This document shows positions 15,611-32,343 of a stretch of DNA of 32,623 nt, one piece after another. The notes beneath the pieces are model-generated. The model was not told the origin of the DNA and did no database searches. It saw nothing but the letters and a program-made list of their open reading frames with translations. Every line of letters starts with the position of its first letter. Within the stretch, counting starts at the first letter, position 1. Source of the DNA: Lentilactobacillus dabitei (GTDB taxonomy: Bacteria > Bacillota > Bacilli > Lactobacillales > Lactobacillaceae). Both the position numbers and the translations under genes were made by a program. Location: assembly GCF_019061365.1 (NCBI RefSeq), contig NZ_JAHPPD010000023.1:1-32623 (forward strand). The letters run 5' to 3'.

Positions 15611-17587
15611 TTAAAATCCATTTTGCTTAAACCAAACAGTCATTTGTTTTTCATCACGGTTAGCCCAAGCATAATATGGAATCAATGTGAGATGACTCTT
15701 ATTAGCGCCCTTAGGTTGATCAAAGCTATACAGCGCATCATCTTCAGAATCAAGTTCTAATCGATAAACATCGTCGGTCGTTAAGACACCAACCCCGCTC
15801 AATAAGTTGGCCCGATAGTCATACTTGAAAGTTGGCTTCTGATCAAGAACATATAACCAGAGTGGCTCTTCGTTATCCACACCTTCTGCCGCGTAAACAA
15901 TTGCGCCTCGTTGAACTGCAACTTTCATCGTATCAGAACTTACCCGGGTACTTGCGCGGACTATGCGAGCTTCCATGTTCAACTTAACAGAAATTTCAGC
16001 CGTTTCATCATCAATATTCAAGTACAGGATACCCTTTTGTAAGCTTGACTCCACTGGCTTACCGTTCATTTTAACCGAATATTTGTCCAAGCTCCAAGCA
16101 GGGATTCGGATCCCAAACTTAAAACTATTTTTGTTTGGATTTGAAATACTGTAGTGAATGTTGCCATCCCAAGGGAAATTCCCAGTTTGCTTAATTTCAA
16201 GGCCATTATTAAATTTGGCGTCGTTAGCGATAAACTGATGAGATAAGATGACATCATCTTTCACTTCGTACAAATACTGATCGAGTGATGCAATCAACCG
16301 GGCGATATTAGCCGGGCAGCAAGCACATGCGAACCATGAAGATCGCCGCAATGCAATATGCTTTTTACCAGGATTTAACTTGCTGGCTAATGGATCAGCT
16401 TCCAATGGGTTGGCATAGAAATAATGCTTGCCATCAAGCGCAATGCCACTCAAGGCACCATTGAAAATTTCCTTTTCAATGACATCACCAAATTTGCCTT
16501 CAAAATCATTAACTAACATCTGTTTGGTAAAGAACGTCATTGAAACCGAAGCACATGTTTCACCATAATCAGTATCATTTGGAAGGTCATAATCGTAAGT
16601 AAATGCTTCGCCAGTCGCGGTTTGATCCACATTGCCTGTTATATACATCTGCTTCTTAACGATATCGTTCCAGAGTCGATTGGCAGCGTCTAATAACGGC
16701 TTGTTATGGCTAACTCTGGCCACATGAGCTAATCCGGTACAGAAGTAGAGCACTCTCACGGCATGTCCATGAGCATCCGTCTGTTCAGTAATTGGCTTGT
16801 CTGCAAAGTAATAACGATCGCCAATTGTCCGAAGCTCTGGGAAGAAGTCGTTATCAATTCCATCAGCCTCATTTTGGGCGTTGAAGAAATTCAAATCCTG
16901 GCCCCGTTGGGTAACAAAATATTCCGCCAATTTCAAGTATGTTTTATTTTGGGTTGTTTCATAAAGTTTGGCTAAGGCCAATTCAATTTCAGGATGACCA
17001 TCGTATCCATGAATTTTGCCATCTTCAGGGCCAAAATGATTATTGATGCAGCTGGCCATTTTTTCAGCAATATCTAGTGCTTTTTGATTGCCCGTTGATT
17101 CATAATAAGCAACCCCAGCTTCAATATAGTGTCCCATTGAATAAAGCTCATGGGATTGTTGCAGCCGCTTGAATTTCCGTTTAGGCGCATCGATTTGGAA
17201 GTAAGTTGACAAGTAACCATCAGGATCTTGGGCATCGGCAATCAAATCAACTGTCCAATCAGCTTCCTCTTTCATCTTTTGATCTGGATTGTATTTTAAA
17301 ACATAGGCAACCGTTTCCAACCACTTGTATACATCGGTATCTTGGAATGGGTACCCAAAGTGATGGCCTTTTGCCCGTCCTGCGGCAATCTTTAAGTTCT
17401 CAATGGCGCCACTGTGATCAGCTGCTCCACCAGCCGCGTCAGCATTCATCACATCCATTTTGCCTTTGTCATTAATCATATCCCATTGAAACGGAACGGA
17501 GTCCTTGGCAATTAAATTACGATAGCGGTTCCAAAAATCCGAAGTAATTTGAACACCATTTAATTGAATTTTAGTTAATTGTTTCAT
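15611..17587 (-). CDS. GH127 beta-L-arabinofuranosidase
   Basis: Retaining, zinc-and-cysteine-dependent glycosidase releasing L-arabinose from beta-L-arabinofuranosides. Protein of 658 residues, close to the 658 of Bifidobacterium HypBA1. The expected Cys/Glu set is present: Glu343 and Cys345 in GETCASVSM, Cys423 and Cys424 in CACCPANIARL (HypBA1: Glu338, Cys340, Cys417, Cys418). The (alpha/alpha)6 barrel is followed by a beta-sandwich C-terminal region ending with LIPYYAWANR. There is no signal peptide, so it is cytoplasmic. I prefer ATG 17587 (GGATGG 8 bases upstream) to ATG 17599, which lies directly on the ribosome site. It is divergent from AraC1, with cre-like sites between them. Confidence 0.9.
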   Translation of the reverse strand: MKQLTKIQLNGVQITSDFWNRYRNLIAKDSVPFQWDMINDKGKMDVMNADAAGGAADHSGAIENLKIAAGRAKGHHFGYPFQDTDVYKWLETVAYVLKYNPDQKMKEEADWTVDLIADAQDPDGYLSTYFQIDAPKRKFKRLQQSHELYSMGHYIEAGVAYYESTGNQKALDIAEKMASCINNHFGPEDGKIHGYDGHPEIELALAKLYETTQNKTYLKLAEYFVTQRGQDLNFFNAQNEADGIDNDFFPELRTIGDRYYFADKPITEQTDAHGHAVRVLYFCTGLAHVARVSHNKPLLDAANRLWNDIVKKQMYITGNVDQTATGEAFTYDYDLPNDTDYGETCASVSMTFFTKQMLVNDFEGKFGDVIEKEIFNGALSGIALDGKHYFYANPLEADPLASKLNPGKKHIALRRSSWFACACCPANIARLIASLDQYLYEVKDDVILSHQFIANDAKFNNGLEIKQTGNFPWDGNIHYSISNPNKNSFKFGIRIPAWSLDKYSVKMNGKPVESSLQKGILYLNIDDETAEISVKLNMEARIVRASTRVSSDTMKVAVQRGAIVYAAEGVDNEEPLWLYVLDQKPTFKYDYRANLLSGVGVLTTDDVYRLELDSEDDALYSFDQPKGANKSHLTLIPYYAWANRDEKQMTVWFKQNGF

Positions 17588-17663
17588 CGTTAAATCCATC
17601 CTTTCAAACGACCAATCAATTTGGCATGATTGATCAATGTGTTAATCTCAATTAATCAGGCTT

Positions 17664-17712
17664 GATTACACTTATAATGATAGCGGTTCCAAGTACGGAT
17701 TAACACTTATAA
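17664..17712. promoter_or_regulatory. Direct repeats flanking a cre-like site, candidate AraC1 operator
   Basis: GATTACACTTATAA (17664-17677) and GATTAACACTTATAA (17698-17712) are direct repeats with ends 35 bp apart, as expected for AraC-family half-sites on one DNA face. Between them lies the cre-like TGATAGCGGTTCCA (17678-17691). On the minus strand a -35 TTGACA (17725-17730) lies upstream of the second repeat, whose TATAAG could serve as the GH127 -10 box. Confidence 0.5.
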
Positions 17713-17745
17713 AAAAATACATCTAGTGTCAAAAAGTGACTTTTC

Positions 17746-17759
17746 CGTTACCGCTTTCA
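17746..17759 (-). promoter_or_regulatory. cre-like CcpA site between GH127 and AraC1
   Basis: Minus-strand TGAAAGCGGTAACG matches TGWNANCGNTNWCA at 13 of 14 positions. It lies upstream of the GH127 -35 box, next to the direct repeats. Confidence 0.55.
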
Positions 17760-17950
17760 TTTCCAATGTGGTAAGCTTGATTTGACAGAATTATTCACTA
17801 GGAGATTTTTAATTCCCCGTGGTACAACGACGTAAAAATTACTGAATTTACCTGTTGATTAATTGGGAAGCCAAAATCGATTTTAGGTGGATAAATACGA
17901 TACCAATTAAATCACTGAGTTTAGACAGTCAAAAGATGGAGGTGTTCACG

Positions 17951-18892
17951 TTGGATAGCGTTATGTTTCCCAAAAATGAAATTGTGACATTTATGATTGG
18001 TGGCAATTTTTCGGCCGATGCTGGCTGGAAACATAAACTTCGTTATCACCATGGTGATTATGAATTAATCATTTGCGTGAAAGGGCCAATCAACCTGCTA
18101 GTCGGAGATGAAACTGTCACCTTAAATGCGAATGATATTTACATTGTGCCACCCTACACGTCAATGAAAGGAACCGAACCAAGCGATCGATCAATTGAAT
18201 TCTACTGGCTTCATTTTCTGCTGCCAACGAAGCCAGCTGCTAGCCAAGATCAATCACAGAGTCTCGACAACCCACATGAGATTCAAAATCTCATCATCGA
18301 TAACAGCTACCACCTCCAAAGTTTAGACGAGTTACTGATCCTCACCCATCAGTTGCTGGCAGTCGACGTTTCAGGCACATACAGCACTCAGCAACAGAAT
18401 CTGTTAATGACGCTTATCCTAACCGTTATTGGTAATTTGGCTAACAAAACTGAAAGTGACGAAAAAAATCGGACAGTTGTCAATCAGCTCAAAGAATGGA
18501 TTAGAGCAAACATTTATCGATCACCAACCCTCACTGATATCGCAAACGAAACCCAACTGAATCGCCAATACGTTTCCAGGCTGTTCAAAAAGTTTGTCGG
18601 TATGTCCCCAAAACATTACATGATCCAACTAAAAATTCAGACTGCCCAAGCACTGCTTATTAGAACGAATTTATCCATCAAAGAAATTAGTGGGTACGCC
18701 TATTTCTCGAACGACAAGCTTTTTATGAAGCAATTCAAACAAGTGACCGGGGTGACCCCGAGCTCATTTCGAAGTGAGTACCGCAAGATCTACCACAATA
18801 ATCAAGTCATTGACCCCGTTTTACCCATCCCAGAAGAAATCACCCAGAAATTGGATCATGATAAGGATCTGGGAACGCCTAAAGAATCGTAA
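17951..18892 (+). CDS. AraC-family regulator of module A (AraC1)
   Basis: Transcription regulator of 313 residues. N-terminal cupin-type sugar-sensing domain (about 1-120; HHGDYELIICVKGPINLLVG, then IEFYWLHFLLP) and C-terminal double helix-turn-helix AraC domain (about 205-300; LTDIANETQLNRQYVSRLFK, then ISGYAYFSNDKLFMKQFK). The start chosen is TTG 17951 with GGAGGTG 6 bases upstream; an in-frame TTG at 17855 has no such site. It is divergent from the GH127 gene and probably activates it in response to an arabinose-containing sugar. Its tail IDPVLPIPEEI resembles that of AraC3 (IDPGYDIGKIV), so the two are related. The ligand is unknown. Confidence 0.88.
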   Translation: MDSVMFPKNEIVTFMIGGNFSADAGWKHKLRYHHGDYELIICVKGPINLLVGDETVTLNANDIYIVPPYTSMKGTEPSDRSIEFYWLHFLLPTKPAASQDQSQSLDNPHEIQNLIIDNSYHLQSLDELLILTHQLLAVDVSGTYSTQQQNLLMTLILTVIGNLANKTESDEKNRTVVNQLKEWIRANIYRSPTLTDIANETQLNRQYVSRLFKKFVGMSPKHYMIQLKIQTAQALLIRTNLSIKEISGYAYFSNDKLFMKQFKQVTGVTPSSFRSEYRKIYHNNQVIDPVLPIPEEITQKLDHDKDLGTPKES

Positions 18893-18925
18893 AAAAGCAG
18901 GCAACTACCAGGGATTAAATTTTTG

Positions 18926-18985
18926 TATAAAAAATAGTTGGAACCGTCCAGCATCCCTGCGAGATGGTTCCAACCATTTTATTTC
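18926..18985. terminator. Bidirectional terminator between AraC1 and the GPH transporter pseudogene
   Basis: Perfect 10-base arms AGTTGGAACC (18936-18945) and GGTTCCAACC (18966-18975). The plus strand is followed by ATTTTATTT and the minus strand by ATTTTTTATAC. It serves the convergent AraC1 and GPH genes. The remaining bases to 19141 hold a second small hairpin (CACTTTC/GAAAGTG near 19005-19027) and no gene. Confidence 0.8.
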
Positions 18986-19141
18986 CTATATAACAACCTT
19001 TTGTCACTTTCTTGAACGAGAGAAAGTGTGCATCAAACAAATCCTCTTGAATCTTTTGAGTATCGATTATGACGAATGGGGTTTCGCTTGAAACATCCAA
19101 TAGGAAGGATGCCCACATAATCTTACTTAATTAATTCGAAA

Positions 19142-20533
19142 TTATTCTTTTGCTTCCTTAGCATGACGAGCAGCCAAGTCTGCTTTGATTTGTGGCTCCA
19201 TCTTTTCGTACTTGAAGTACAAGCACATAATGGCAGCAACAATCGCATAGACGATAACTGGGAAGTAAATAAATGTGAAGTGAATGGCACTCAAAGCATG
19301 AGCAGATTGAGTCTTGTTAGCAACGAAGCCAGCAGCAGCCATGATCTTTGAAGGAATGAAGGCACCGAAGCCTGAACCTAATTGAATACAGAAGGCAGAA
19401 CCAACGGCAGTCAAGAATCCAGGAGCTCGAATACCTGTCTTCCATTCACCAAAGTCAACAGTATCAGCTAACATACCAAATGGCATGGCAACGGCGATTG
19501 AAGCACCGAAGATACCGATAATCCACCCAACGATAACAAGAGTGAAGTTGTTACCAACAAATCCCATCATTAATTGACCAAAGGCACCAATTGCCAAACC
19601 GATAATCATGGTCATCGTCTTGTTGGTTACTTTAACAATAAATGGAATTGAAATAGTAGCGATGATACCAAGAACTTGGAGACCGTTAAATACAGAAGTT
19701 AATTGTTCGTTACCCAAGTTGTATTTAGCGTAGTAAACTGAGATTCCGTTACGAGTTGATTGAGCAACCCAGTAAATAACAAATGAAACAACCAAAATGT
19801 ACCAAGGTGCGTTACCAACAGTAGCTTTCAAAGAATCTTTGAAAGGAATTGGCTTTTGAACGGCAATTGTTCGTTCCTTCATACCCTTAAATGCTAAGAA
19901 GAGCAAGATAACGGCTAAGATACCGAAGAAGAACATTGTCCACATGAAACCAACTTTATCGTCACCTTTACCCATGAAAGCAACTAAAGGCAAAGCGAAG
20001 GTACTTGTGATAAATGAACCAAGGGCACCACCAACCATTCGGAATGAGTTGGCATTCATCCGTTCCTGACCATTCGTGGTCAAACTAGGAAGAATAGCAG
20101 TAATTGGTGTTTGAATACCAGTATAAACAACTCCGGCAGCTAGGATGTAAGTAAACCCGGCATACCATAACTTAGCAGATCAGTGCAATCCTGGCGCAGT
20201 GAAGGCTAAGAATGTTGCAACGGCAAATGGAATGGCTAACCATAAGAAGTAAGGTCGACTTTGACCCCATTTAGTATGGGTGTGGTCAACGATTGAGCCC
20301 CAAACTGGTGCACTAATTGCATCGAAGAAACGTGCAACCAGCAAAATCATTCCGGCACCTGCAGCAGTAATTCCGAACACATCGGTGTAGAAGTAAAGAA
20401 TGTAACTAGAAATTGTAACATATAGTAAATTACCGGCCATATCAGTAAAGGAATAAGCTGTTTTTTCCCAAACTGATAGTTTGACATTCGCTTTGTCTTT
20501 GCCGGCATTTGATGCTTTGGCAGTATTGTCCAT
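19142..20533 (-). pseudogene. GPH-family sugar:cation symporter of module B, one in-frame TGA
   Basis: Glycoside-pentoside-hexuronide family transporter (12 membrane segments, MFS fold). One unbroken frame of 464 codons except for TGA at 20180-20182, between APGLH and SAKLWYAG. The full length and motifs (SFTDMAGNLLY, DHTHTKWGQSRPYFLW, ERMNANSFRM) are otherwise intact. TGG to TGA (Trp) or CGA to TGA (Arg) are single transitions. ATG 20533 with GGAG 9 bases upstream. It is the third gene of the module B operon, 81 bases after the DUF5695-like gene. Translation would stop after 117 residues unless there is read-through. The intact GPH gene of module C might substitute. Confidence 0.85.
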
Positions 20534-20614
20534 GATGAATATCTCCTATCATATAAGTTTATAATTGCAGAACAAGGTGGATCTTGTCATCACCTCCCCA
20601 AGTGAATCATCAGC

Positions 20615-22981
20615 CTATTCGAACGTTCCTGTAGCGGCGTTGAATATGACATTGTCTTGATTACTCTTGAATACATCTTTCTTGTCCAAATTAATGTATT
20701 CACTGATATATGGTGCAAAGCTTTGGACCTCATAGCGATTATCGTCTAACGGTTTGATTCGACCATTGATTGCTGTCAGTCCTTTATTCTTGTCTTGATA
20801 AATGTAAGTCTTTTGACCAAAACCATTTAAGAAGGCAACGAGTTCTTCACCCATGTCCCAGTCATCCTCTCCCGTGTAACCATCGGGGAACAATCTGGCA
20901 AAAATGCCACCGTCTGAAGCAAAGATTGATTGTCCGAATCGATTCCGTGAAAGATCAGGTCTGTTCAAATTGGGACCCGCGATGCTATAAGTCGAAGCGG
21001 CCTCACCTGGTTCAAGCATTCGATCAGTTGCTGTTGCATTTGAATCATACATATAGAGGATCGCACCGGTTGCCCGATAAGCTGCTTCAACGAGTTCAGG
21101 ATCGGCAAGCTCTTCACCTGTAATTTGAGCAGATGCGGCGGTTAAGCCACCCCATAGTACGTGAATCATGTAAGATAATGCTTCCCACCAACGATCTGGA
21201 CTCTGTGACCGGAAGTCGTTACTAAAACCAATATTGGCTTTTAGCAACTCGCCATAGGTCTTAGCTGCGCCAACGTTGCCGGTAAGGGCTAATGCGCTGG
21301 CAGCTGGACCAAAGCCAGCATTGTCAAAGAAATGTTCAGTCATTGCAGCATCTAAGGTACTGCTGGTTTTAGCCAGCCGGTCTGTGACGGCTTTCCATGA
21401 CTTCGAAATTTCTGAGTATTCTTTATCCAAACCATTTTTCTTTAAATCTGCTAGTAAATCTTCAATATATAAACCATAGGTTCCAAGCATCTGTGCCTCA
21501 GTCTTAGCCCGCTCATCTTCATTCAAGTCCGGGTTGACCCGAACATCGAACACTTGAGCAGCCCATGATAAGTAATCATTTGGCTTGTTCAATTTTAATG
21601 AAGCTGCTGGACATTTCGACAACAGGTAGAACATATGGGCAATGTACTCAAGATCCATCAAGCGGTAAAAGTCACCGTAGAGCTTAGCTGGCTTTCGGAA
21701 GTCACCATTGACGAACCACTTTTTGCGGACGTACTTTACAGCACTTTCTTCAACCTGAGCAATTTGTTTGTCGGCGTCCTTTACTTTGTCATCCAAGAGG
21801 CATTCCTGAAGGATGAAGGTCATCTTACCAAGCGACTCGCCTTGATTAGAAACAGGGCCGAAGCTGTATGGAACCTTGCCGTCTTTGCCTGCATATGAGT
21901 GTTCAGAAACGTAATTTGCTCGATTGCGCAACAGCTCATTGATTGAACTCATCACGTTGAAGACACCCATATCAACCGTACCATCATCGAATGATAGGAT
22001 CACTTGATGTTCTCCCAAGCCTTCAGGTTGATAGACCAAGCGACCGTCTTTCAAATCGCTGGTCATATCCTGGTCAATTGTTTGATGGCCGGATTTGTAA
22101 CGAACTGAAATCTTTTGAAGCTTCTGATCCTTTGCCAACTTGACAGTAAAGATCTGATCGGAGCCTTGAGAAATCATTGGTTCAAACGAGAACCGAGGAT
22201 GACCAAAGTCCCTAGTTGCAATGTCATAGAAGTTCTGGTGGCTGGTAAATGGCTTGAGGTAGAACTCCCAATCCTTCGTCTCACCAGCTTTAAGAATTAG
22301 ACTATCTTGCGGATAAATCCAGTCGTGGTGTGGCCGACGATCATCGTCATACCCACCTGCCAGGACAATTTCGTGGAACAACATACCATCTAATGAAGGC
22401 GAAACATTTTCAAAGAACCGATTGGTGTAATCGTTGAAGGTTCCCACTGAGAGCACTTTTCCCTTGGTTTGGTAGACTCCCAGATTCGGGTTGGTATTGT
22501 CACGACGGACAGCAGCCAATTTGGTGTAATTCTTAGAAATCTGTGGGAAAACGGCAACTGATTGGTTCGCATTACGCTTAACATTTTTATCTCTAAACAT
22601 GACGTAAGCTAAGCTAATCCAAAGGCCTAAGTTTTCAATAGTGGCATCTTCTTGAGTCCCATTTTGAATTGAAAAGTCCCATTTAAATGCGTCCTTTTCA
22701 AGTTCAAAATTCTGTTTCAGCGTTAACCCGGCTACTTGGAAAGTCACCGTACTATGGGTATCATCACCGGTAACTTCAGGTATCTGGTCAATGCTTCGAT
22801 GCTTTTGACCATTTACAGTAATATTGAATTCACCAAAGAGTTTATCTAAGTCATCATATCCGAGGGACTCGAGATAATCCGGGTCAATCACCCAGTTCAT
22901 ATTTGATTTGTCGTCGTTGAGCTTAAAGCTGGTAATTGCTCCTCGTTTACTTTGTGCTACTGTCAGAAAATCCGACTTCAT
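20615..22981 (-). CDS. DUF5695-like putative six-hairpin glycosidase of module B
   Basis: Protein of 788 residues without signal peptide. Architecture: N-terminal beta-rich part (about 1-270, ending LILKAGETKDWEFYLKPF), a small beta domain (about 275-365), then a long helical region (about 370-700) of the (alpha/alpha)6 type, and a beta C-terminus. The layout and several landmarks match the module C protein at 28237 (FILKAGEAKTFTLKF). I therefore place it as a distant relative of DUF5695, though the signature motifs are less clear. An acidic candidate sits in PDRWWEALSYM. It lies 29 bases after the GH146-type gene in an operon. A glycan-cleaving or sugar-epimerising role is inferred only from the neighbours. 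ATG with AGGAGGG. Confidence 0.65.
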   Translation of the reverse strand: MKSDFLTVAQSKRGAITSFKLNDDKSNMNWVIDPDYLESLGYDDLDKLFGEFNITVNGQKHRSIDQIPEVTGDDTHSTVTFQVAGLTLKQNFELEKDAFKWDFSIQNGTQEDATIENLGLWISLAYVMFRDKNVKRNANQSVAVFPQISKNYTKLAAVRRDNTNPNLGVYQTKGKVLSVGTFNDYTNRFFENVSPSLDGMLFHEIVLAGGYDDDRRPHHDWIYPQDSLILKAGETKDWEFYLKPFTSHQNFYDIATRDFGHPRFSFEPMISQGSDQIFTVKLAKDQKLQKISVRYKSGHQTIDQDMTSDLKDGRLVYQPEGLGEHQVILSFDDGTVDMGVFNVMSSINELLRNRANYVSEHSYAGKDGKVPYSFGPVSNQGESLGKMTFILQECLLDDKVKDADKQIAQVEESAVKYVRKKWFVNGDFRKPAKLYGDFYRLMDLEYIAHMFYLLSKCPAASLKLNKPNDYLSWAAQVFDVRVNPDLNEDERAKTEAQMLGTYGLYIEDLLADLKKNGLDKEYSEISKSWKAVTDRLAKTSSTLDAAMTEHFFDNAGFGPAASALALTGNVGAAKTYGELLKANIGFSNDFRSQSPDRWWEALSYMIHVLWGGLTAASAQITGEELADPELVEAAYRATGAILYMYDSNATATDRMLEPGEAASTYSIAGPNLNRPDLSRNRFGQSIFASDGGIFARLFPDGYTGEDDWDMGEELVAFLNGFGQKTYIYQDKNKGLTAINGRIKPLDDNRYEVQSFAPYISEYINLDKKDVFKSNQDNVIFNAATGTFE

Positions 22982-23010
22982 TTATAAAACCCTCCTGGCG
23001 TCTTGATTAA

Positions 23011-25191
23011 TTATTTTGTTGCAACCATTGATTCAATCTTGTTAATGTTTGCAATATCAAAGTTCAAACCTTCGTAATCGAGTGGCTTGATCTTAATATT
23101 GAGTTTGTTTTTGCCTTTAGTTGCATCTAATGGTAGTGGATAGATGTAGTATGAATCTTCTGGCCATTCTTCACTCTTCATGGTCTGAGTAAAGAGAACC
23201 TTTTGATCATCTTCAATTTGGAAACTATAAATATCACCATCTAAGCGATCATAAGTAATCTTCAAATAGTTCTTCTTTTCTGGGTCAACGGCCAATGTCC
23301 ATTCACGTTCTTCATTCACTGGCTTGTCGCTATCGTTTTGAGTATCAATCACAGTTGCAACCTTTTCGTCAGGAACTTTTACATAAACGTTATATGGGGT
23401 GCTACCAGGAATTGCTGGCAGTGACTTAAAGATGATGTTGGTGCCGGCAAGCCGGAATTGATTCTTACCTTCAACCTTAACAAGATCCTTCAAGTATTCC
23501 TTAGCAGGCTTGGTTGAGGCTGGTAAGTCTTTTGTTTGAGCTGCTAATAAGATTGGGCCGTAGTAGATTGCAACTCGGTTAAATCTATCAGCAAGGGTTT
23601 GATAACGCAGTTCGAAATCAAAGTTAACGGTAATTTCAGCTTTCTTGCCCCAAGTACGCTTAATAGCAACAAAGCCATTCTTGGGTTCTGCATCAACAGT
23701 TTCACCATCAACGGAAATTGTCGTTGTCTTGCTCCACTTTGGAATTCGCAGATAAATCGTAAATTCTTGTGACTTTGCAGCTTCAACAGTGATGTGAGCA
23801 AAGTGTTGTTCTGGGAAATGAGAATCTTGAGTAAGGGTGACACCCTGGTCCTTCAAATCAAGAATTGAATCGAAGTATTGACCAACATAGATATCGTGAT
23901 TGTCGGTGTAGTAGATTCCGTCGACTAAGGTTGAGTGACGTTCAGTACCACTACCAGTGCAGCACCAGAAGCCAGTGTGACTGTATTCCTTGGTTGAGTT
24001 AGGGGCAACACTCAAGTTATACAGGTATTCAGCGATAGCGCTGTCATTATTCTGCTGAGCCATGATTGCATTCACAAACCGAATTTCATAATCATCAAGC
24101 AAAGTAGCATCCTTAGTATCAGCAAATAATTCTGAGCTCAAGAAGTTCAAGTCATGGCTGCAGCAACTTTCGCCGTTTAACTTAGATAAGTGCTTAAAGA
24201 ACATTTCTGGGTAGTCATATAGTTCTGAACCGTAATCGGCAGGTGCTGGATATGCTGAACGACCTGAAATGCCTTTAGTTGGTAATTCGTGGCCATCGTG
24301 CATCCAGTTCATGTAATTGACAACGCCTTTTTTATAATTCTCGTCGCCAGTCACATGATAATATTCTAGCATTCCTTCGGCACAAACTAATTCGGTGTTT
24401 GCGTGACATGAGTAGTAGCCTAATTCATCATCATTATTGATTAACATGTCACGGAACCACTTACGATCAAATTTTTCAGCTAAATCGAAAATATCTTTTT
24501 GCTTCTTACCAGTCATTTCATACAAGCGGAGTAATGTTCGATGCATGGCCCCAAATTCTTGGTGATAAATGTAGTGGCCTTTGCCTTGGTACCACCGAGT
24601 ATCAATCATTGCATTGATTTGTTCTGGCGTAAGCCGTTCCATTCGTTTCTCAAAGTAATGAGTCATGTTCATGACAAGTTCCAAGGCAGTTTGGTTACCA
24701 GCATATTCATAAGCGTCCATCAAGCCATCCATTAACTTTTGAACAGCATAATATGGCACATAATGGTTACCATTGAATCGAAGCTTTTCAACATCATCGA
24801 AGCGCTTTGAAGGTTCAGCAGCTAAGTAACCTGGGAATTCTTCAAATGTATCGAATCTCTCTTGGCATTCTTTCAAGCCATCGATAATTTGGTTGACCCG
24901 ATCTTTTAGTTCATTCGCTTCTTTGGTATCTTCCATATTGTTGAGTTCAACATAACTTCTAGAAGCCCCTGAAAGATAATGACCAGTAAAGTGACCTCTA
25001 AAGAACCAGTCTGGTGATTCCCATACCGTTAGTGGCGTAGCGCCTTTAGTATCTAGTCCTGCATTTACCCGATAGTTATACAGTAACTGATCAGGTGTGA
25101 GGGACAACATCCAATTAACGTTGCACTCGAACTTCTCTTTTAAAGTCGAACCTGGTAAATATTTAACATCATAATATGACACCGGTTTCAT
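23011..25191 (-). CDS. GH146/DUF1680-type beta-L-arabinofuranosidase
   Basis: Protein of 726 residues related to GH127/GH146 (DUF1680), intracellular by lack of a signal peptide. Barrel motifs include RGHFTGHYLSGASRSY (65-80), YYAVQKLMDGLMDAY (147-161) and HQEFGAMHRTLLRLYEMTG. The catalytic cysteine/glutamate set is Glu341 and Cys343 in GESCCSHD, Cys410 and Cys411 in FWCCTGSG, and Glu417 in TERH. This fits the GH146 pattern FWCCxGTG-E better than GH127. An extra Cys (344) beside the zinc-ligand position is unusual. ATG 25191 has AAAGGA at good spacing; a longer in-frame form from 25254 has none. It is the first gene of the operon with the DUF5695-like and GPH genes, divergent from AraC2. Confidence 0.85.
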   Translation of the reverse strand: MKPVSYYDVKYLPGSTLKEKFECNVNWMLSLTPDQLLYNYRVNAGLDTKGATPLTVWESPDWFFRGHFTGHYLSGASRSYVELNNMEDTKEANELKDRVNQIIDGLKECQERFDTFEEFPGYLAAEPSKRFDDVEKLRFNGNHYVPYYAVQKLMDGLMDAYEYAGNQTALELVMNMTHYFEKRMERLTPEQINAMIDTRWYQGKGHYIYHQEFGAMHRTLLRLYEMTGKKQKDIFDLAEKFDRKWFRDMLINNDDELGYYSCHANTELVCAEGMLEYYHVTGDENYKKGVVNYMNWMHDGHELPTKGISGRSAYPAPADYGSELYDYPEMFFKHLSKLNGESCCSHDLNFLSSELFADTKDATLLDDYEIRFVNAIMAQQNNDSAIAEYLYNLSVAPNSTKEYSHTGFWCCTGSGTERHSTLVDGIYYTDNHDIYVGQYFDSILDLKDQGVTLTQDSHFPEQHFAHITVEAAKSQEFTIYLRIPKWSKTTTISVDGETVDAEPKNGFVAIKRTWGKKAEITVNFDFELRYQTLADRFNRVAIYYGPILLAAQTKDLPASTKPAKEYLKDLVKVEGKNQFRLAGTNIIFKSLPAIPGSTPYNVYVKVPDEKVATVIDTQNDSDKPVNEEREWTLAVDPEKKNYLKITYDRLDGDIYSFQIEDDQKVLFTQTMKSEEWPEDSYYIYPLPLDATKGKNKLNIKIKPLDYEGLNFDIANINKIESMVATK

Positions 25192-25254
25192 TTTGATTCG
25201 TCCTTTCTGATAAAAAATGGGTTTCAACAACGTCGTTATGAATTTGCATATCAT

Positions 25255-25465: not shown

Positions 25466-25544
25466 TATGATATCCAAACGATTTTTTATACTAATATTAA
25501 CAGCAAATAATTAATCACTCGCTAAGCAAGTGGAGGAGTCTAAT

Positions 25545-26483
25545 ATGGCTAAACAATTTTTGTCAATTTCGTGTCTGCCAACCCCAACTTATATTCAGAG
25601 TGGGCATGTCATTTTCAAACCAGGTGAACGTCACCCTAATCGTAGAAATTTTCAATTCTTCGTCATGATGTTTATGCAACGTGGAGCCCTATACATTGCC
25701 GAAGATGACAATCAGTATACCGTTCGTGCTGGTGAAATGTTTATTTTACAACCTCAGCATCATCATTATTCATGGAAACCAATCGATGAAACAACGGAAT
25801 ATTATTGGATCCATTTTGCAACGGCTGGTAACTATGTTCAATCCAACGAACCCAAGCAGGTCCAGTCGTTAATTCCAGTCCCCGCAATTCACTACTACAC
25901 TTCAATGGTAACGTTGTTTCTCCAAAAACAGCAGCCCATTCCTAATGAAGCAACTATTTTTTCAATGATTGAAAAAATCTTTACCAATAGTCGCAAATCC
26001 AACGAGAATCACTCGGACACCACTCAAAACTCAATTGAATTCTGGAAAGCGCAACAGCTTTTCATTGATTTACTGCAATTGATTCAGGTCCAGGCCCCTC
26101 AGGAATCGCCAACCGTTATGATTGCCAACAAAATTCAACGTTACATCGAAGATCATTATGATGAAAAGATCACTTACGAAGAACTTGGAAAGCAATTTCA
26201 TATCCACCCTAATTCTGTATCCATTTATATGAAGAAAACTTTCGGAATTACCCCTAATATGTTATTAACCAAATATCGGCTAGAAGAAGCCACCAAGTAC
26301 CTACTATTAACTTCGGACCAAATTAGTAAGATTGCCACTAGAGTTGGTTATCAAAACGTGTACTACTTCTCAATGGCCTTCAAAAAGCACTACGGTATGT
26401 CACCATCCCAGTACCGAAAGAAATACATCAGCTTGAAGCTTCACACAACAACGGAAAGTTCCCATGGCACCCAATTAATTTAA
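25545..26483 (+). CDS. AraC-family regulator of module B (AraC2)
   Basis: Regulator of 312 residues. N-terminal cupin-like AraC ligand domain (about 25-95; FFVMMFMQRGALYIAEDDNQ, YTVRAGEMFILQPQHHHYSW, YYWIHFAT) and C-terminal AraC HTH pair (about 205-305; ITYEELGKQFHIHPNSVSIY, then SKIATRVGYQNVYYFSMAFK). ATG 25545 is chosen for GGAGGAG 6 bases upstream; an in-frame GTG at 25530 overlaps that site. It is divergent from the GH146-type operon, which it probably controls. It is less similar to AraC1 and AraC3 than those two are to each other, lacking their IDP-type tail. Confidence 0.88.
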   Translation: MAKQFLSISCLPTPTYIQSGHVIFKPGERHPNRRNFQFFVMMFMQRGALYIAEDDNQYTVRAGEMFILQPQHHHYSWKPIDETTEYYWIHFATAGNYVQSNEPKQVQSLIPVPAIHYYTSMVTLFLQKQQPIPNEATIFSMIEKIFTNSRKSNENHSDTTQNSIEFWKAQQLFIDLLQLIQVQAPQESPTVMIANKIQRYIEDHYDEKITYEELGKQFHIHPNSVSIYMKKTFGITPNMLLTKYRLEEATKYLLLTSDQISKIATRVGYQNVYYFSMAFKKHYGMSPSQYRKKYISLKLHTTTESSHGTQLI

Positions 26484-26527
26484 AGCCTTTTTTCGTTGGG
26501 ATCGAAGACCGGCGCATCTATTAATTT

Positions 26528-26594: not shown

Positions 26595-26642
26595 GAAAAG
26601 GACCAACTATTCCAAAATCAGGAATAATTGGTCTTTTTCGTT
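26592..26642. terminator. Strong bidirectional terminator after AraC2
   Basis: 22-base arms (26592-26613 and 26621-26642) pair at 20 positions around the loop AAAATCA. The A/T-rich ends (GTCTTTTTCG on plus) support termination from both sides. Confidence 0.85.
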
Positions 26643-26738
26643 AAATTCTGAGGTCAAATCGATTTTCGCACCGGCAATTAATGAAGCACCGAGCAATTCT
26701 GTGGTTAATATACCTTAAGCCCATATTGAGAACTTTAA

Positions 26739-26951
26739 CTACCGATTAATGGCTTGCCAAACTTCCATTTGGCCCTCCGCTCGGTTCGCCCATGCATAAT
26801 AAGGAATTAACTTCATATTGGTTGGGGACCAAGTAATCTCATCAGTTAGATAAAGTTCATCTTCATTTTCTCGAGCCACTTGAACATCTTCGGTTTGAAG
26901 CACCCCAACCCCGTCTAATAATGATCCCTCATATTCATGATCGTTCTTTAT
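26739..26951 (-). pseudogene. 3' remnant of a GH127 gene
   Basis: The minus strand, ending at TAG 26739-26741, encodes about 70 residues including LLDGVGVLQTEDVQVA, MKLIPYYAWANRAEGQMEVW and AINR. These align with the C-terminus of the module A GH127 (LLSGVGVLTTDDVYRL, LTLIPYYAWANRDEKQMTVW). Upstream of it, in frame, is a TAA (26952-26954) and no further GH127 similarity. It is therefore a truncated relic of a second GH127 copy, downstream of AraC3. The bases 26955-27116 contain only a short unassigned coding-like tract (WMNDVDASLKYPNKVR on the minus strand, about 27020-27068). Confidence 0.85.
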
Positions 26952-27116
26952 TTACCAAAATGACACTCACAAAAGATCACGTTTGGTGCTTTATTTTGAC
27001 TTCTTCTAAGAGCTACCTGACTTTATTTGGGTATTTAAGTGAAGCATCCACGTCATTCATCCAGATATCCCTACGCCCTCATCAGTTTGTTTTTATAATA
27101 GCCAACATCTCATTTT

Positions 27117-28040
27117 TTAAAATAGCTTCTTTTCATCAATTCCCTTTTCCAGCACCGACACAATTTTACCGATGTCATAGCCAGGATCAATATCTGGGTT
27201 ATTCAGGAATGTGCTTGTAAACGTATTACGATATTTTGCCGGTGTTAAATTAGTATTCCTTTTAAAAATTCGAAAGAAATATTTGTAGTCGTTAAAATAG
27301 CTTTTCTCCGATATCTCTTGCACCGATAAGGTAGTCGTCAGTAATAGGTACTTGGCTTGATCGATTTTAAGTTTATTCAAATACTTCTTAACAGTTGAAC
27401 CCGTTACTTTTTTAAAGATAGCAGCCAGATAATTTTGGTTGATTTCAAAATGATCAGCGATGGTTCGAACCGTTAGTTCTTTATTGATATTTAGCCGGCT
27501 CCACTCCTTGATTTGCATTACTTTACTTTCATCAGTGGTATCAGATTGTACCTGATTCAAATAATCATTAGCAAGTTCAGTCACCAATAAAGTGGCCGCA
27601 TAATCCGCCGATGAGGCATGCCCTTGATGATGGGCAATGTCTAGTAATTGCGTTGCCAGGACCAAGCAGCGATCAGGTTCAGTCATTTGAAAAGATCTCG
27701 GTAGAATTGCTAAGTTCTCCGGAATAGGCTTGGTTGGCCCTTCTTTTGCAATATTAAGCGGTGCCTGATTGATAATATGGATCCAAAAGAAATCAGAAGA
27801 CACCGTTACCGGGGTACTCCCAAAAATTGTTTCAGTCGGAAAATTAATCAAGACTTTTCCAGCAGTTAAGTTAAATTTTTCGCTGCCAATTGCAAGCGGG
27901 ATATCCCCAGAGAGACCAATTAGAATCTCAGTATCAGATTTTCGAGTAGACACCTTATGGGTCCAACCCCGCTTAGTAATGAAGTGACCACACTCCACTA
28001 GTTTCATAGGATAACCCAACTGATAATAACCATATTCCAT
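27117..28040 (-). CDS. AraC-family regulator of module C (AraC3)
   Basis: Regulator of 307 residues: N-terminal ligand-binding domain (about 12-95; GWTHKVSTRKSDTEILIGLS, SDFFWIHIINQ) and C-terminal AraC DNA-binding domain (about 185-285; LTVRTIADHFEINQNYLAAI, then QEISEKSYFNDYKYFFRIFK). The tail NNPDIDPGYDIGKIVSVLEK resembles AraC1. ATG with AAAGGAGG. It is divergent from the DUF5695-GPH operon and probably controls it. Downstream on the same strand lies only the GH127 remnant, so it may once have headed a GH127 unit. Confidence 0.88.
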   Translation of the reverse strand: MEYGYYQLGYPMKLVECGHFITKRGWTHKVSTRKSDTEILIGLSGDIPLAIGSEKFNLTAGKVLINFPTETIFGSTPVTVSSDFFWIHIINQAPLNIAKEGPTKPIPENLAILPRSFQMTEPDRCLVLATQLLDIAHHQGHASSADYAATLLVTELANDYLNQVQSDTTDESKVMQIKEWSRLNINKELTVRTIADHFEINQNYLAAIFKKVTGSTVKKYLNKLKIDQAKYLLLTTTLSVQEISEKSYFNDYKYFFRIFKRNTNLTPAKYRNTFTSTFLNNPDIDPGYDIGKIVSVLEKGIDEKKLF

Positions 28041-28130
28041 CAGCTTTATCCTCCTTTATGATCTTCACTACTTCATCAACAAAGTGAAAAAAGATACTTT
28101 TTATACGAAAATGTGAGCTTTTATAAAAAG

Positions 28131-28170
28131 AACAAGCGCTTACAATTTAACTCGTAGGTGATCGCTTACA
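28131..28170 (-). promoter_or_regulatory. Two cre-like CcpA sites upstream of module C
   Basis: Minus-strand TGTAAGCGCTTGTT (28131-28144) and TGTAAGCGATCACC (28157-28170). The second matches the cre consensus at 13 of 14 positions. Both contain CGCTTACAA on the plus strand, spaced 26 bp apart. They lie in the 28041-28236 divergent region. Confidence 0.6.
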
Positions 28171-28172
28171 AG

Positions 28173-28192
28173 TTCATACTGACGAGTATGAA
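28173..28192. promoter_or_regulatory. Perfect 20-bp palindrome, candidate operator of module C
   Basis: TTCATACT / GACG / AGTATGAA, perfect 8-bp arms. It is 44 bases upstream of the DUF5695 start codon and directly beside the second cre-like site. It could bind AraC3 or another repressor. Confidence 0.5.
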
Positions 28193-28236
28193 TTGTACCA
28201 CAATATTCTCGGAACAAAGAATTGAGGAAAATTAAA

Positions 28237-30732
28237 ATGGCAAACCTAAAAATCGAAAGTTTTCAATCTAATTCCAATCTGTTAAAGACACTTGCAGCCC
28301 AAGATGAGAACCAAGAGTGGTTTGATTTTGCCACCAGTAAGGCCAAGGTCAACCGCTCCGGCTCGGATTACTACCAACTGGGTGATGTCCAGTTAGCCCT
28401 TCGGCCGGTCAACCAACAGCAGTGGTCATTTTACACAACAAAAGATGATCAAGATTTGACAACTGCCCCTCTCAAGATTGATCGTGATTGGATCGTAAAA
28501 AATGATAGCGTTTTATTCACTACTAGAATAACAAATTCAAGCAAAAATAACATTGAAGTTGGTGGCTTGGGCTTTGCAATGATCTTTAATCAAATCTTTA
28601 CGGATAACTCACTTGAGGAAAGCCATAACAATAGCTCGTTTGTTGACCCATATATCGGCCAGGATGCTGGCTATCTCCAAGTTGCACGGCTCAATGGTCG
28701 AAAGCCAACGTTACTAGTTGTTAATGGTGGTAACACACCATTTGAAGCTTACCGCCCCCTTAACGATGATAAAACCAAACGCGATGTTCACTTTGAAGGA
28801 TTTTATGAATGGACTGCGTTTTCCAAAGCCTACTTCGATACCAATTGGGATGGTAAGCGTCAGTGGAACACCCCCAGCTCATTTATCTTAAAAGCTGGTG
28901 AGGCTAAGACATTTACCTTAAAGTTCATTGATGTGACCACTCCAGATAAAATCGCCAATACATTAATCGAAAACAGCATTCCCAGTGTTGCCAGTCTGCC
29001 AGGTTATGTACTCCACGGCCAAGAACAAGCAGAATTAACAATTCACACCGATAAAGATATCGCTAGAATCCATGCCGACCCAGAAACTGCAATTAAGATT
29101 ACAAACGGCTCTTCTCACCATGCTTATCTGCTTAGCCGGCTACATGACTACTTTGGTCAAGCCCGCATTGTGATTGAATATTCCGATCATACAACCCAGA
29201 CCATTAATTATTATGTTACAGACGCGGCCGAACAATTAGTGCAGCAACTAGCAAGATTCCACGAAACTCACCAATGGCTTGCTGAACCGGATAAACACGG
29301 TCGCCAACACTCATTTGTCACCTATGATAATGAAACAAACCGCCAAGTACTGGACGAATTTCGATCATACATTTCAGGTGATTCCGATGAAGCCGGTGCC
29401 GGTCCCAATCTTCTAATGGCAATTAAGAACTTATATATGCCAAATAAAAACCAAGTCCACATGTTAGAACAATATGTTGATGATGTTCTTTGGGGGCACT
29501 TGCAAAACAAAGATTACAGCATTCGGGCCAGTTTGTATTATATGAACAACGACATCATGTACAGTTGGAATAAATCCCGCTCTGAAGAAACTTGGCGTGC
29601 TTATAACTATCCTCACCAAGCTACTATTTATTGGGTGATGTATCGACTTGCAAGAAATTATGATGGCCTAGTTACCAACCATGATTGGCAATGGTACCTA
29701 AACCAAGCCTATCAAACCGTCATGGCAATGCATCAATTCTGCGGCAAGGATGCGTTTCTTTACTTGGAACAATATGGCTTAATGGTTGGCAGTATTCATA
29801 AATCAATCCTTGAGGACTTAAAGAATGAAGCGTGGACTAAACAAGCCAATCACTTTGAATCATACATGAAATATCGCTATAACATTTGGGCAAACTTACA
29901 ATATCCATATGGTAGTGAAATGCCGTGGGACTCCACCGGTCAAGAAGAGGTTTATACCTGGTGTGATTATTTTGGTGACCAACCCAAAGCGGTCAAAACG
30001 GTTAACGCCATCTTAGCATGTACACCACTCATCCCTCACTGGGGCTATAACGGTGACGCTAGGAGATACTTTGATTCCTTCGTATATGGTAAACGAGAAA
30101 AAATAACCCGAGAATTTAACCATTACGGTTCAAGCCTCAACGCAATCCCCATTCTCGATAATTATAAATATCATGATTCAGCCAATTTATTTAAGCTGGA
30201 AGTTGGCTACGCTGCCTCAACCAGCGCTTTAAGTTCAATTGATCAGAAGGGCTTTGGCTCCATGGCCTTTCTAACTGATCCTGAATTCATGGAATTTGAA
30301 CCTTACACATCGGACTATGGCCAAGCTTTTTATGGCTATGCCCATGACGCAGGGCAGTATATATACCAACAATCCGCGACTCGTTGGCTTTCGTTTGGTG
30401 GCAATTTCAATACGAATAATAGCCAGATTATCTTTGAACCAACTGATGCATTTAGACACCGCATGTTTATCCACACTATCAATTTTGACGTGGAAATTGA
30501 TTCAGAAGTTGTCCCAATCAAATCAGCTGTCCTTGATCTTAGTGAGGGAATGCTGCAACTTCATTTTGCTAACTGCGACGTTGCTCCCAAAAACATCCGG
30601 GTTAAAACGTCAGCTAATCTGATTCCCACAAGCAGTGCCCAATCAATCCGTGGTGCATATGAATTTAGTCGTACTAGCGATGAAGTCACGTTTAGCATTG
30701 CAAATAAATCACCAAAAAACAACGTCAATTAA
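28237..30732 (+). CDS. DUF5695 putative (alpha/alpha)6 glycosidase of module C
   Basis: Protein of 831 residues with no signal peptide. It matches my memory of DUF5695 proteins, large uncharacterised bacterial and fungal proteins with a six-hairpin glycosidase-like barrel. Landmarks: N-terminal beta region (about 1-250), a small beta domain (about 255-330), SGDSDEAGAGPNLLMAIKN (about 370-390), LWGHLQNKDYSIRASLYYM, YNYPHQATIYWVMYRLARNY (about 455-475), PYGSEMPWDSTGQEEVYTWC (about 555-575) and HYGSSLNAIPIL (about 625-637). The Glu pair in GQEEVY is the best candidate catalytic acid. ATG 28237 follows GAGGAAA; TTG 28222 is in frame but less likely. It is operonic with the GPH transporter 36 bases downstream. 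Substrate unknown; an arabinose-containing glycoside is inferred from the neighbours. Confidence 0.8.
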   Translation: MANLKIESFQSNSNLLKTLAAQDENQEWFDFATSKAKVNRSGSDYYQLGDVQLALRPVNQQQWSFYTTKDDQDLTTAPLKIDRDWIVKNDSVLFTTRITNSSKNNIEVGGLGFAMIFNQIFTDNSLEESHNNSSFVDPYIGQDAGYLQVARLNGRKPTLLVVNGGNTPFEAYRPLNDDKTKRDVHFEGFYEWTAFSKAYFDTNWDGKRQWNTPSSFILKAGEAKTFTLKFIDVTTPDKIANTLIENSIPSVASLPGYVLHGQEQAELTIHTDKDIARIHADPETAIKITNGSSHHAYLLSRLHDYFGQARIVIEYSDHTTQTINYYVTDAAEQLVQQLARFHETHQWLAEPDKHGRQHSFVTYDNETNRQVLDEFRSYISGDSDEAGAGPNLLMAIKNLYMPNKNQVHMLEQYVDDVLWGHLQNKDYSIRASLYYMNNDIMYSWNKSRSEETWRAYNYPHQATIYWVMYRLARNYDGLVTNHDWQWYLNQAYQTVMAMHQFCGKDAFLYLEQYGLMVGSIHKSILEDLKNEAWTKQANHFESYMKYRYNIWANLQYPYGSEMPWDSTGQEEVYTWCDYFGDQPKAVKTVNAILACTPLIPHWGYNGDARRYFDSFVYGKREKITREFNHYGSSLNAIPILDNYKYHDSANLFKLEVGYAASTSALSSIDQKGFGSMAFLTDPEFMEFEPYTSDYGQAFYGYAHDAGQYIYQQSATRWLSFGGNFNTNNSQIIFEPTDAFRHRMFIHTINFDVEIDSEVVPIKSAVLDLSEGMLQLHFANCDVAPKNIRVKTSANLIPTSSAQSIRGAYEFSRTSDEVTFSIANKSPKNNVN

Positions 30733-30768
30733 TGAAATTGGTTTCTAAATAATTAGGGAAGTGGAAAC

Positions 30769-32343
30769 ATGCAAAAAACAAATGAAATTCATGATGGTTG
30801 GAACGAATATCAAAGCAAAAAGATTTATACGCCCCGGGGTAAAATTGGTATTTTAAGATCAACCGGCTTTGGTATGTATGGCTTTATTGGCTCTGCAGTT
30901 GGTTTAATCTGCTATAATTATATTTCGTATTTTTATACCTATTTTTGTGGGTTAACCCCATTACAAGTGGCTTTTATGTTAATTTTCGGGCGGGTGTTAG
31001 CCTCTGGCGTTGCCCTTTGGATTGGTCATTTTTCAGATTCACTATATAAGTTTAAATTCGGTCGCAAGTACGGCCGGCGACATTTCTTCATCCTAATGAC
31101 CATTCCTTTCTTTGTATACGCGACACTGATTCCCATTAGCGGATTAAACTTCTGGTATTATTTTATTACCTACTCAGTCTTACTAGCGTTTTTCAACACA
31201 ATCCATTTACCATGGACAACGTTACCCTCAGAAATGACGGATTCGTTTAAAGTAAGAACCATCATGGGAACCGTCCGCAGTGTCGTTGCTGCTTTGCTCA
31301 ATACGATTGCTGCTTTCGTTGTGGCTCAGATCTTGAATAACTGGCCCAAAAACGATCCCAAGATTTACCTGTATCTCCAGATTGGCCTTTCAGCAGTCGG
31401 AATTATCTTTGCTCTGATTACTTACTACACTACTTGGGAACACTTTGTTACTAAGAACGAAGCTGCCCTCATGGAAGCAGAACACAATCAAGGGACTAAT
31501 ATTTCCGCCTCTCGCTGGACCAAGTTCAAAGAAACCGCCCATGATTACCTTTCAATTTTCAAAATTAAAAGTTTTAGAAAACACTTATTCATTGATGGTG
31601 CTGATCAAATGGCCGGAAACTTAGGCGGCCTGATATTAACGTATTTCATCGTTAATGTATTAGGATTAAATGCGTCAGTAACCGCCTACCTGTCATCACT
31701 AAGTACTTTTGTTGGTATTTTCGTAATGATTGCAGCTGGCTACGTGATTAATAAGTATGCACCAAGATATATGTACGGTGTTGCCTATGGAATGGCCATG
31801 ATATCCTGTGTTGGTTTTGGCCTGCTTGGCTTTATTAAACCAGATCATATGGTAATGTGGTTATTAATCGTTCAAACCTTCTCAATCTTTGGCGGTCAGT
31901 TATATGGATTCATCCCCGGAACAGTCTTTCCATCCTTACCCGTCTTAGATACTTTACTTACAGGTCAAAATCGAGCCGGAACCTTTTCATCGCTCGCGGG
32001 CTTATTTGAACAAGGCGGTTTTGTAATCACCAATATTCTTGGTGAAGAAATCCTTCAGTTGGCTGGGTTCAAGAGTAGTACTACTGGTGCTGTGAATCAG
32101 TCACCAACTGTTCAATTAACTTTAACGCTCATGATTAGTGTTGGAGTAGGATTCTTCTTCTTAATTGCTTTATACAATGGTCTTTCATTCAGAGCGGATA
32201 AATCGAAGTTGGATTTGATTAGTGCGGAAGTGACTCGCCTAAAATCTGGTGGCAAAATGTCCGAAGCCTCAAGCAAAGTCAAATCGGTTACAAAAGAATT
32301 AACCGGTGAAGATTACGATTCAATCACTGTTTGGGACAAATAA
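30769..32343 (+). CDS. GPH-family sugar:cation symporter of module C
   Basis: Intact transporter of 524 residues with about 12 hydrophobic segments, glycoside-pentoside-hexuronide family. It imports a sugar with H+ or Na+. Seen: GRVLASGVALWIGHFSDSLY followed by the Arg/Lys-rich cytoplasmic loop FKFGRKYGRRHFFIL (family signature loop 2-3), HLPWTTLPSEMT, and a hydrophilic C-terminal tail (about 475-524). It lacks the PTS IIA-like tail of LacS. It differs clearly from the module B GPH (longer, divergent), so it is not a recent duplicate. ATG with GGGAAGTGG. The likely cargo is the oligosaccharide or disaccharide handled by the island enzymes. Confidence 0.88.
   Translation: MQKTNEIHDGWNEYQSKKIYTPRGKIGILRSTGFGMYGFIGSAVGLICYNYISYFYTYFCGLTPLQVAFMLIFGRVLASGVALWIGHFSDSLYKFKFGRKYGRRHFFILMTIPFFVYATLIPISGLNFWYYFITYSVLLAFFNTIHLPWTTLPSEMTDSFKVRTIMGTVRSVVAALLNTIAAFVVAQILNNWPKNDPKIYLYLQIGLSAVGIIFALITYYTTWEHFVTKNEAALMEAEHNQGTNISASRWTKFKETAHDYLSIFKIKSFRKHLFIDGADQMAGNLGGLILTYFIVNVLGLNASVTAYLSSLSTFVGIFVMIAAGYVINKYAPRYMYGVAYGMAMISCVGFGLLGFIKPDHMVMWLLIVQTFSIFGGQLYGFIPGTVFPSLPVLDTLLTGQNRAGTFSSLAGLFEQGGFVITNILGEEILQLAGFKSSTTGAVNQSPTVQLTLTLMISVGVGFFFLIALYNGLSFRADKSKLDLISAEVTRLKSGGKMSEASSKVKSVTKELTGEDYDSITVWDK

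Follow-up and report, generated by a model that had tools for sequence, protein, structure and literature searches.

In Bifidobacterium longum, according to PMC7263609, a GH121 enzyme frees Ara-β1,2-Ara outside the cell, an ATP-binding cassette (ABC) importer takes it up and a GH127 enzyme splits it inside; the GH127 enzyme HypBA1 sits in such a GH121/ABC cluster. The Zn/Cys centre of GH127 and GH146 enzymes is described in PMC10850190. We analysed a stretch of Lentilactobacillus dabitei DNA (the window: the entire contig C141, 32,623 bases, from a 2.8-Mb genome) that carries GH127 and GH146-type genes together with two further genes, D788 and D836. It is a real catabolic island containing two branches of a PL27-like superfamily that lack an assigned function. 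We propose, with a probability of about 0.45, that the island imports and splits arabinosides and that D788, whose family is unassigned, acts in the cytosol as an L-arabinosidase.

D788 gave no match to any NCBIfam model or to PF07944 in profile scans of the island proteins. Its match to DUF5695 (PF18951) is marginal (25.8 bits, cut-off 25.2, residues 82–363 only) and scored 23.8, below the cut-off, in the genome search. D836 is a full-length DUF5695 protein (residues 16–809, profile positions 4–834 of 857), and the D788 and D836 profiles align with each other (probability 98.2%, E = 3.5e-14). An earlier annotation of the window, made from its letters and reading frames (the sequence-only reading), had listed GH127, a GH146-type enzyme, two DUF5695-type proteins and a GH127 relic; all are present, D788 deserving the DUF5695 label only marginally. 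AlphaFold models of D788 (mean predicted local distance difference test score 80.9, predicted template modelling (TM) score 0.83) and D836 (75.5 and 0.81) match the β-sandwich plus (α/α)6 barrel of the PL27 enzyme BACCELL_00875, which outscores every other solved structure by far (E = 2.5e-25 for D788 and 2.7e-26 for D836). The next-best structures reached E values of about 1e-8 and 5e-5 with query TM below 0.3. Alignments to 5nok cover 734 and 740 columns (TM 0.61/0.71 for D788, 0.61/0.75 for D836), and the fit is loose (15% identity, root-mean-square deviation 5.4–7.1 Å). The PL27 sequence profile matches D788 with E = 2.5e-6 (best stretch 10–175) and D836 with E = 4.7e-16 (217–681), at 15% identity. 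Profiles and models thus point to the PL27 lyase superfamily for both D788 and DUF5695.

Across 79 D788 sequences, 130 positions deviate in no more than one sequence; they include the acidic residues E382, E411, D443, E549, D589, E600, D707 and D709. No cysteine is conserved, the best cysteine column reaching no more than 45 of the 79 sequences; D788 should therefore work without the Cys/Zn mechanism of GH127 and GH146. The N-terminus, judged by eye, shows no signal peptide. Literature searches listed no paper that deals with D788 or treats DUF5695 as an enzyme, and the sole paper found to name DUF5695 concerns fungal velvet regulators.

A scan of a species-genome collection identified 117 D788 relatives in Lactobacillaceae, Enterococcus, Bacillaceae, Paenibacillaceae, Lachnospiraceae, one Kineococcus and others. 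Eighty loci were retrieved (37 of the 117 were not) and 78 were scored for neighbours, L091 and L107 being left out of the counts for want of a D788 reading frame in the cluster. Neighbours were clustered by all-against-all BLAST (60% coverage, single linkage), with one or a few members per cluster checked against Pfam. A transporter of the GPH1 or ABC cluster lies within three genes of D788 in 71/78 loci; AraC-family regulators occur in 50, and a regulator of the AraC, AraR or LacI type in 58. An arabinose marker (AraR, AraA, FGGY kinase, GH51, GH127, GH146 or GH121) is found within 10 kb in 49 loci. Over this distance, true AraR with a GntR head accounts for 20 loci, AraA for 14 (12 with an FGGY kinase as well), GH51 for 18, GH127 for 13, the GH146 cluster for 12, GH121 for six and D836-type proteins for six. 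One AraR member matches PDB 3tb6 (E = 8e-69) and 4egy (6e-15). The AraR label was rejected for the regulator cluster as a whole (43/78 loci), only 20 of the 43 having the GntR head; the other 23 are LacI-family, and a Pfam scan of nine of these found a LacI head in all nine. The FGGY kinase is only a candidate AraB, a member of its cluster scoring best with a xylulokinase model, below its cut-off. Ten of the 12 GH146-cluster members are at least 72% identical, those of L063 and L076 just 26%. GH43 and melibiase genes are present among the other neighbours.

On the D788 tree the partner changes four times for GH146, nine for GH127, 11 for GH51 and once for GH121. D788 adjoins GH146 in all nine scored loci of the window orthologue group (L047–L055); L091, which is 73% identical and was not scored, carries GPH1 and GH51 in place of GH146. 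Paralogues in L. kisonensis, L. fungorum and L. sunkii adjoin GH51. Paralogue pairs in three Lentilactobacillus species (L048/L056, L049/L057 and L050/L058) have one copy by GH146 and the other by GH51. The contig of L055 is filed as Sporolactobacillus shoreicorticis and has the Lentilactobacillus-type arrangement AraC-GH146-D788-GPH1-DUF5695; its D788 is 77% identical and falls within Lentilactobacillus in the tree, which suggests transfer or a foreign contig. In three Paenibacillus loci a further 780-residue protein directly precedes D788 (L096:7544-9904, L099:7625-9964, L103:7285-9642), with a faint GH76 match below cut-off in L096 and none in L103. A scan of the loci with a Bacillus subtilis AraR operator consensus gave 37 sites with up to three mismatches against 16 in one shuffle per locus; 18 of the 37 precede araA, the FGGY kinase or AraR, and no such site lies within 450 bp before D788.

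Within Lactobacillaceae, D788 is present in 19 of 201 sampled genomes. Eighteen of these 19 carry araA, compared with 55 of the 182 others (Fisher p = 4e-8; co-occurrence p-values ignore relatedness), and the single genome without it comes from an assembly that is 87% complete. PF07944 scores above cut-off in 12/19 versus 21/182 (eight genomes with matches below cut-off were excluded from the test), and GH51 in 14/19 versus 18/182. Three genomes, G018, G129 (Pediococcus acidilactici DSM 20284) and G137, combine D788 and araA with neither GH127/146 nor GH51; D788 of G018 is in two pieces. No GH121 scored over the model cut-off in the 201 genomes, window genome included, which had no match at all. 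Weak matches in 24 genomes fall, among those listed, on the non-catalytic C-terminal part, save one short stretch with stops.

From gene content, homology, predicted fold and neighbourhoods, we infer that the GPH (glycoside-pentoside-hexuronide) symporters import short plant L-arabinosides and that cytosolic splitting follows. D788 would be the cytosolic glycosidase that releases L-arabinose from them, probably by means of acidic residues in its PL27-like β-sandwich and helical barrel rather than a Cys/Zn centre. Free L-arabinose would enter metabolism through L-arabinose isomerase (araA), which the window genome encodes on another contig. In the window lineage the substrates are most likely β-linked L-arabinofuranosides: β is favoured over α because GH146 adjoins D788 in the nine loci named above and because a profile search of the window genome gave no GH51 match. 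The family as a whole may cover both linkages, since paralogues adjoin GH51. A cytosolic L-arabinoside-splitting enzyme is the best-supported role for D788 in Lactobacillaceae. The sequence-only reading had suggested import of short β-arabinosides and their degradation inside the cell by an enzyme set other than the bifidobacterial one. Gene content, synteny in Lentilactobacillus and the araA association fit import and cytosolic degradation by such a set; the unusual members of the set are D788 and DUF5695, GH127 and GH146 being ordinary, and a β-linkage is not established for the whole island.

DUF5695, the branch of D836 and its secreted cousins, would be the sister of D788 and act on the same glycan class, the secreted members releasing sugars at the surface. 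D836 is accompanied by a regulator and a symporter of its own, AraC3 and GPH2. GPH2 is a single open frame with an 81% identical counterpart adjoining D836 in genome G151, where the D836-GPH2 pair recurs beside AraC3, AraC1, a major facilitator superfamily gene and GH127. DUF5695 proteins whose starts look signal-like by eye are found close to D788 in L. kisonensis, L. fungorum, Sporolactobacillus and Paenibacillus methanolicus, and in L. rapi across a contig break. Schleiferilactobacillus harbinensis also has a DUF5695 protein, which is split over two frames. By analogy, the secreted proteins may be surface-releasing enzymes parallel to GH121.

A parallel to the bifidobacterial arrangement comes from six loci of one Paenibacillus clade, in which a LacI gene, D788, a substrate-binding protein and two membrane proteins are followed by a protein of 2111–2116 residues. 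In L114 this protein is a GH121 (6m5a, HypBA2, E = 2e-111) with S-layer domains; it scores 647 bits with NF041578, below the model cut-off of 3200. The other five are 85–95% identical to it over the domain. The case that D788 would occupy the place of GH127 here is strong by position, not by exclusion, because all 20 D788-bearing genomes tested outside Lactobacillaceae, these six among them, have PF07944 genes as well. For the same reason D788 was dropped as the unique splitter in these Paenibacillus. The PF07944 genes of the six GH121 genomes lie away from the D788 locus; L112, L115 and L125 have one within the D788 locus itself. A wider version of our proposal would make D788 the founder of a glycoside hydrolase family of its own, its cytosolic L-arabinofuranosidase activity being carried by a PL27 scaffold that lacks the Cys/Zn centre. 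Together with secreted DUF5695 it would form a second, independently built system of surface release, import and cytosolic splitting of β-arabinosides, parallel to bifidobacterial GH121/ABC/GH127, across Lactobacillaceae, Enterococcus, Bacillaceae and Paenibacillaceae. We regard this version as tentative, and as less probable than the arabinosidase role by itself.

A number of observations weigh against the arabinosidase proposal. At 29/78 loci, mainly LacI-ABC-D788 loci in Paenibacillaceae and loci of the AraC-GPH1-D788 type, no arabinose marker was found. At 36/78 loci D788 has no member of the GH51, GH127, GH146 and GH121 clusters nearby (L119, counted among these, carries a DUF5695 protein), and AraR, AraA or FGGY kinase occurs at just seven of the 36. 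The Paenibacillus regulator belongs to the LacI family instead of being AraR. Through their PF07944 genes, all 20 D788-bearing genomes tested outside Lactobacillaceae have other candidates for splitting β-Ara2. GH51 lies near D788 in 18/78 loci, which speaks against strict β-specificity; among araA-bearing Lactobacillaceae the link of D788 to GH51 persists (p = 0.003) and that to GH127/146 is non-significant (p = 0.10). In the window strain GPH1, the D788-linked importer, is interrupted by a TGA codon. Finally, the nearest solved relative acts on rhamnose-glucuronate as a lyase, according to PMC8377490.

For D788 and D836 alike, this relative (BACCELL_00875) gives the best fold match, and the PL27 profile detects both proteins. 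D788 could accordingly be a true PL27-type lyase that removes, by β-elimination, an arabinosyl or rhamnosyl cap from the glucuronate of imported arabinogalactan side-chain fragments, substrates that the melibiase-type genes in some loci would suit. However, KduI, an entry enzyme for unsaturated uronate products, had no match in 15 of the 18 D788-bearing Lactobacillaceae genomes searched, window genome included (it is present in G021, G089 and G174; G165 was excluded), and no uronate gene is in the top 25 of 106 Pfam families (83 unlabelled neighbours). We consider a lyase unlikely, and a hydrolase is tentatively favoured because KduI is mostly absent and the Lactobacillaceae neighbours point to L-arabinose. 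The frequency of GH51, both beside D788 and in D788-bearing genomes, would be explained if D788 were an α-L-arabinosidase helping GH51 on arabinan or arabinoxylan fragments, its placement with GH146 and GH121 being secondary. The window genome, however, has no GH51 match, GH146 adjoins D788 both in the window and in the closest of the scored relatives (L091, unscored, being the one with GPH1 and GH51), and six Paenibacillus loci pair D788 with GH121, the maker of a β-linked disaccharide. We judge a helper of this kind to be as improbable as the lyase. Somewhat less probable still is an ordinary β-arabinofuranoside island, in which only GH127 and GH146 matter and D788 and D836 are non-catalytic or serve another sugar. 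GH127 and GH146 do retain the Glu-x-Cys and Cys-Cys pairs of the Zn/Cys centre, and the loci lacking an arabinose marker would be expected. Against it, 31 of the 36 loci lacking the four glycosidase clusters have D788 by a transporter, the near-invariant positions persist over 41–98% identity as is typical of an enzyme, and araA co-occurs with D788.

The layout of the island, from position 15611, is given in Table 1.

Table 1. Features of the arabinoside island in the window.
Feature	Coordinates	Strand	Evidence or remark
GH127 β-L-arabinofuranosidase (putative), 662 aa	15611..17599	-	PF07944 E 1.9e-100; PDB 3wkw E 8e-205
Divergent GH127/AraC1 gap	17600..17854		cre-like: exact 17678-17692, one-mismatch 17746
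AraC1, AraC-family regulator	17855..18892	+	PF12833, PF02311
Junction; L. rapi has ~5.9 kb extra here (surface-type protein and secreted DUF5695)	18917..18919		blastn L149 vs window
GPH1 glycoside-pentoside-hexuronide symporter, in-frame TGA at codon 118	19142..20533	-	TIGR00792, PF13347 on both pieces
D788, 788 aa, PL27-like predicted fold; proposed cytosolic L-arabinosidase	20615..22981	-	marginal DUF5695 match
GH146-type β-L-arabinofuranosidase (putative), 29 bp upstream of D788	23011..25254	-	PF07944; 5opj, 8k7y
AraC2, AraC-family regulator, divergent from GH146-D788-GPH1	25530..26483	+	profile match
GH127 C-terminus relic	26757..26939	-	tblastn E 9e-11 (window GH127), 9e-25 (L. otakiensis GH127)
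AraC3, AraC-family regulator	27117..28040	-	profile match
D836, DUF5695 protein, signal peptide not visible, PL27-like predicted fold	28222..30732	+	PF18951 803.5 bits
GPH2, MFS_2-type sugar symporter	30769..32343	+	PF13347 E 1.1e-21

As the sequence-only reading had it, three AraC genes diverge from enzyme genes, across gaps of 255 bp (AraC1/GH127), 275 bp (AraC2/GH146) and 181 bp (AraC3/D836), with cre-like sites between. In a scan with a cre consensus, cre-like matches lie inside or at the edge of all three gaps, the exact one in the first and one-mismatch matches also at 25254/25255, 28131 and 28157; the window holds 29, where 20 mononucleotide shuffles average 15.5. A shared operator of the three gaps was rejected: the first two share only an A+T-rich 13-mer, and the third shorter A+T-rich words. 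GH146, D788 and GPH1, spaced by 29 and 81 bp, form one apparent operon by gene layout. The contig stops 280 bases past GPH2, so the island may continue beyond its end. Both GPH symporter genes listed by the sequence-only reading are present, GPH1 being the broken one. Among the ten island proteins scanned, the transporters are all MFS_2-type, in keeping with the stated absence of an ABC importer, and the stated absence of GH121 holds genome-wide; GH43, likewise not visible to that reading, is represented by two genes elsewhere in the genome.

GH127 and GH146 of the window are ordinary family members. GH127 scores 337 bits with PF07944, with catalytic, middle and C domains all above the Pfam cut-offs, and E347-x-C349 and C427-C428 are present, in register by eye with those of HypBA1. 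The GH146-type protein (PF07944, 196 bits) is nearer to solved GH146 than to GH127 (5opj, the GH146 enzyme BT0349, 1e-44; 8k7y, 5e-37; GH127 3wkw, just 1.5e-6); E362-x-C364 and C431-C432 are in place, and it is probably a β-L-arabinofuranosidase. The GH127 relic is 48% identical over 64 residues to the C-terminus of the window GH127 and 65% over 66 to GH127 of L. otakiensis, which has a complete GH127 at this position in the same orientation. The window genome has four PF07944 genes. At another locus of this genome (L028, G000:C208) a GH127-type protein that contains bacterial Ig-like domains is encoded at 5958–8150; its neighbours are a dicarboxylate-type symporter and a leucine-rich-repeat protein with DUF5776.

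Comparison of gene order revealed synteny in several Lentilactobacillus genomes; order and content vary between species, and the modules are not one fixed unit. D788 is 98% identical to the L. rapi protein, and aligned island DNA is 88–93% identical to that species, which places the window strain near L. rapi within Lentilactobacillus. L. rapi DSM 19907 (G199) has a short-chain dehydrogenase, GH127 and AraC1 in the same order as the window. There, AraC1 is followed by a 493-residue surface-type protein and a DUF5695 protein of 1287 residues that has a signal-like start and ends in a DUF5776 tail, a position that the window sequence skips directly across. The statement that all enzymes lack signal peptides, borne out by eye for the N-termini in the window, is therefore strain-specific. 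GPH1 of L. rapi lies at a contig break, its link to D788 resting on a second contig (C49) that starts GPH1-D788-GH146-AraC2. Since both genes also lie beside GPH1 in L. kisonensis, their loss in the window strain is the simpler reading of the alignments. GPH1 of the window is 90% identical to the L. sunkii (G109) symporter on either side of its stop (tblastn). With two genes missing and GPH1 broken, the GPH1/DUF5695 branch of the island looks partly decayed in this strain. Outside the island, the window's short-chain dehydrogenase-like gene (14642–15306, minus strand) is split over two frames, the L. rapi copy being whole (242 residues, L149:1103-1831). A pyruvate-oxidase-like gene, named by eye (3387–5138, minus strand), has two in-frame stops, TAG and TAA.

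Under the proposal, the conserved D788 family, whose function is unassigned, and Pfam DUF5695 both acquire a substrate class that can be tested, and species with D788 and araA but neither GH127/146 nor GH51 allow direct testing. It also raises the question of whether an arabinosidase arose from a lyase fold or a lyase from an arabinosidase, and is relevant to the possible use of hydroxyproline-rich glycoprotein or arabinogalactan sugars by lactic acid bacteria that lack GH121. Compared with the HypAA/HypBA2/HypBA1 (GH43, GH121, GH127) and ABC system of B. longum, the island would share arabinoside import and cytosolic splitting to L-arabinose, and it has a GH127; six Paenibacillus loci have an analogous layout, LacI-D788-ABC-GH121. 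Unlike that system, Lactobacillaceae have no GH121 over cut-off, and the window island has GPH symporters instead of an ABC importer, AraC control, and D788 and DUF5695 in addition. D788 and D836 resemble the PL27 L-rhamnose-α-1,4-D-glucuronate lyase BACCELL_00875 (5no8, 5nok) in predicted two-part fold and significant profiles, but D788 is only distantly related in sequence, shows no signal peptide on inspection by eye, has L-arabinose genes nearby in 49/78 loci and mostly occurs without KduI. The cysteine glycosidases GH127 and GH146 (clan GH-P) are neighbours of D788 with probably related substrates; unlike them, D788 lacks a conserved cysteine and does not match PF07944. Within DUF5695, D836 is a full-length member and D788 a marginal one.

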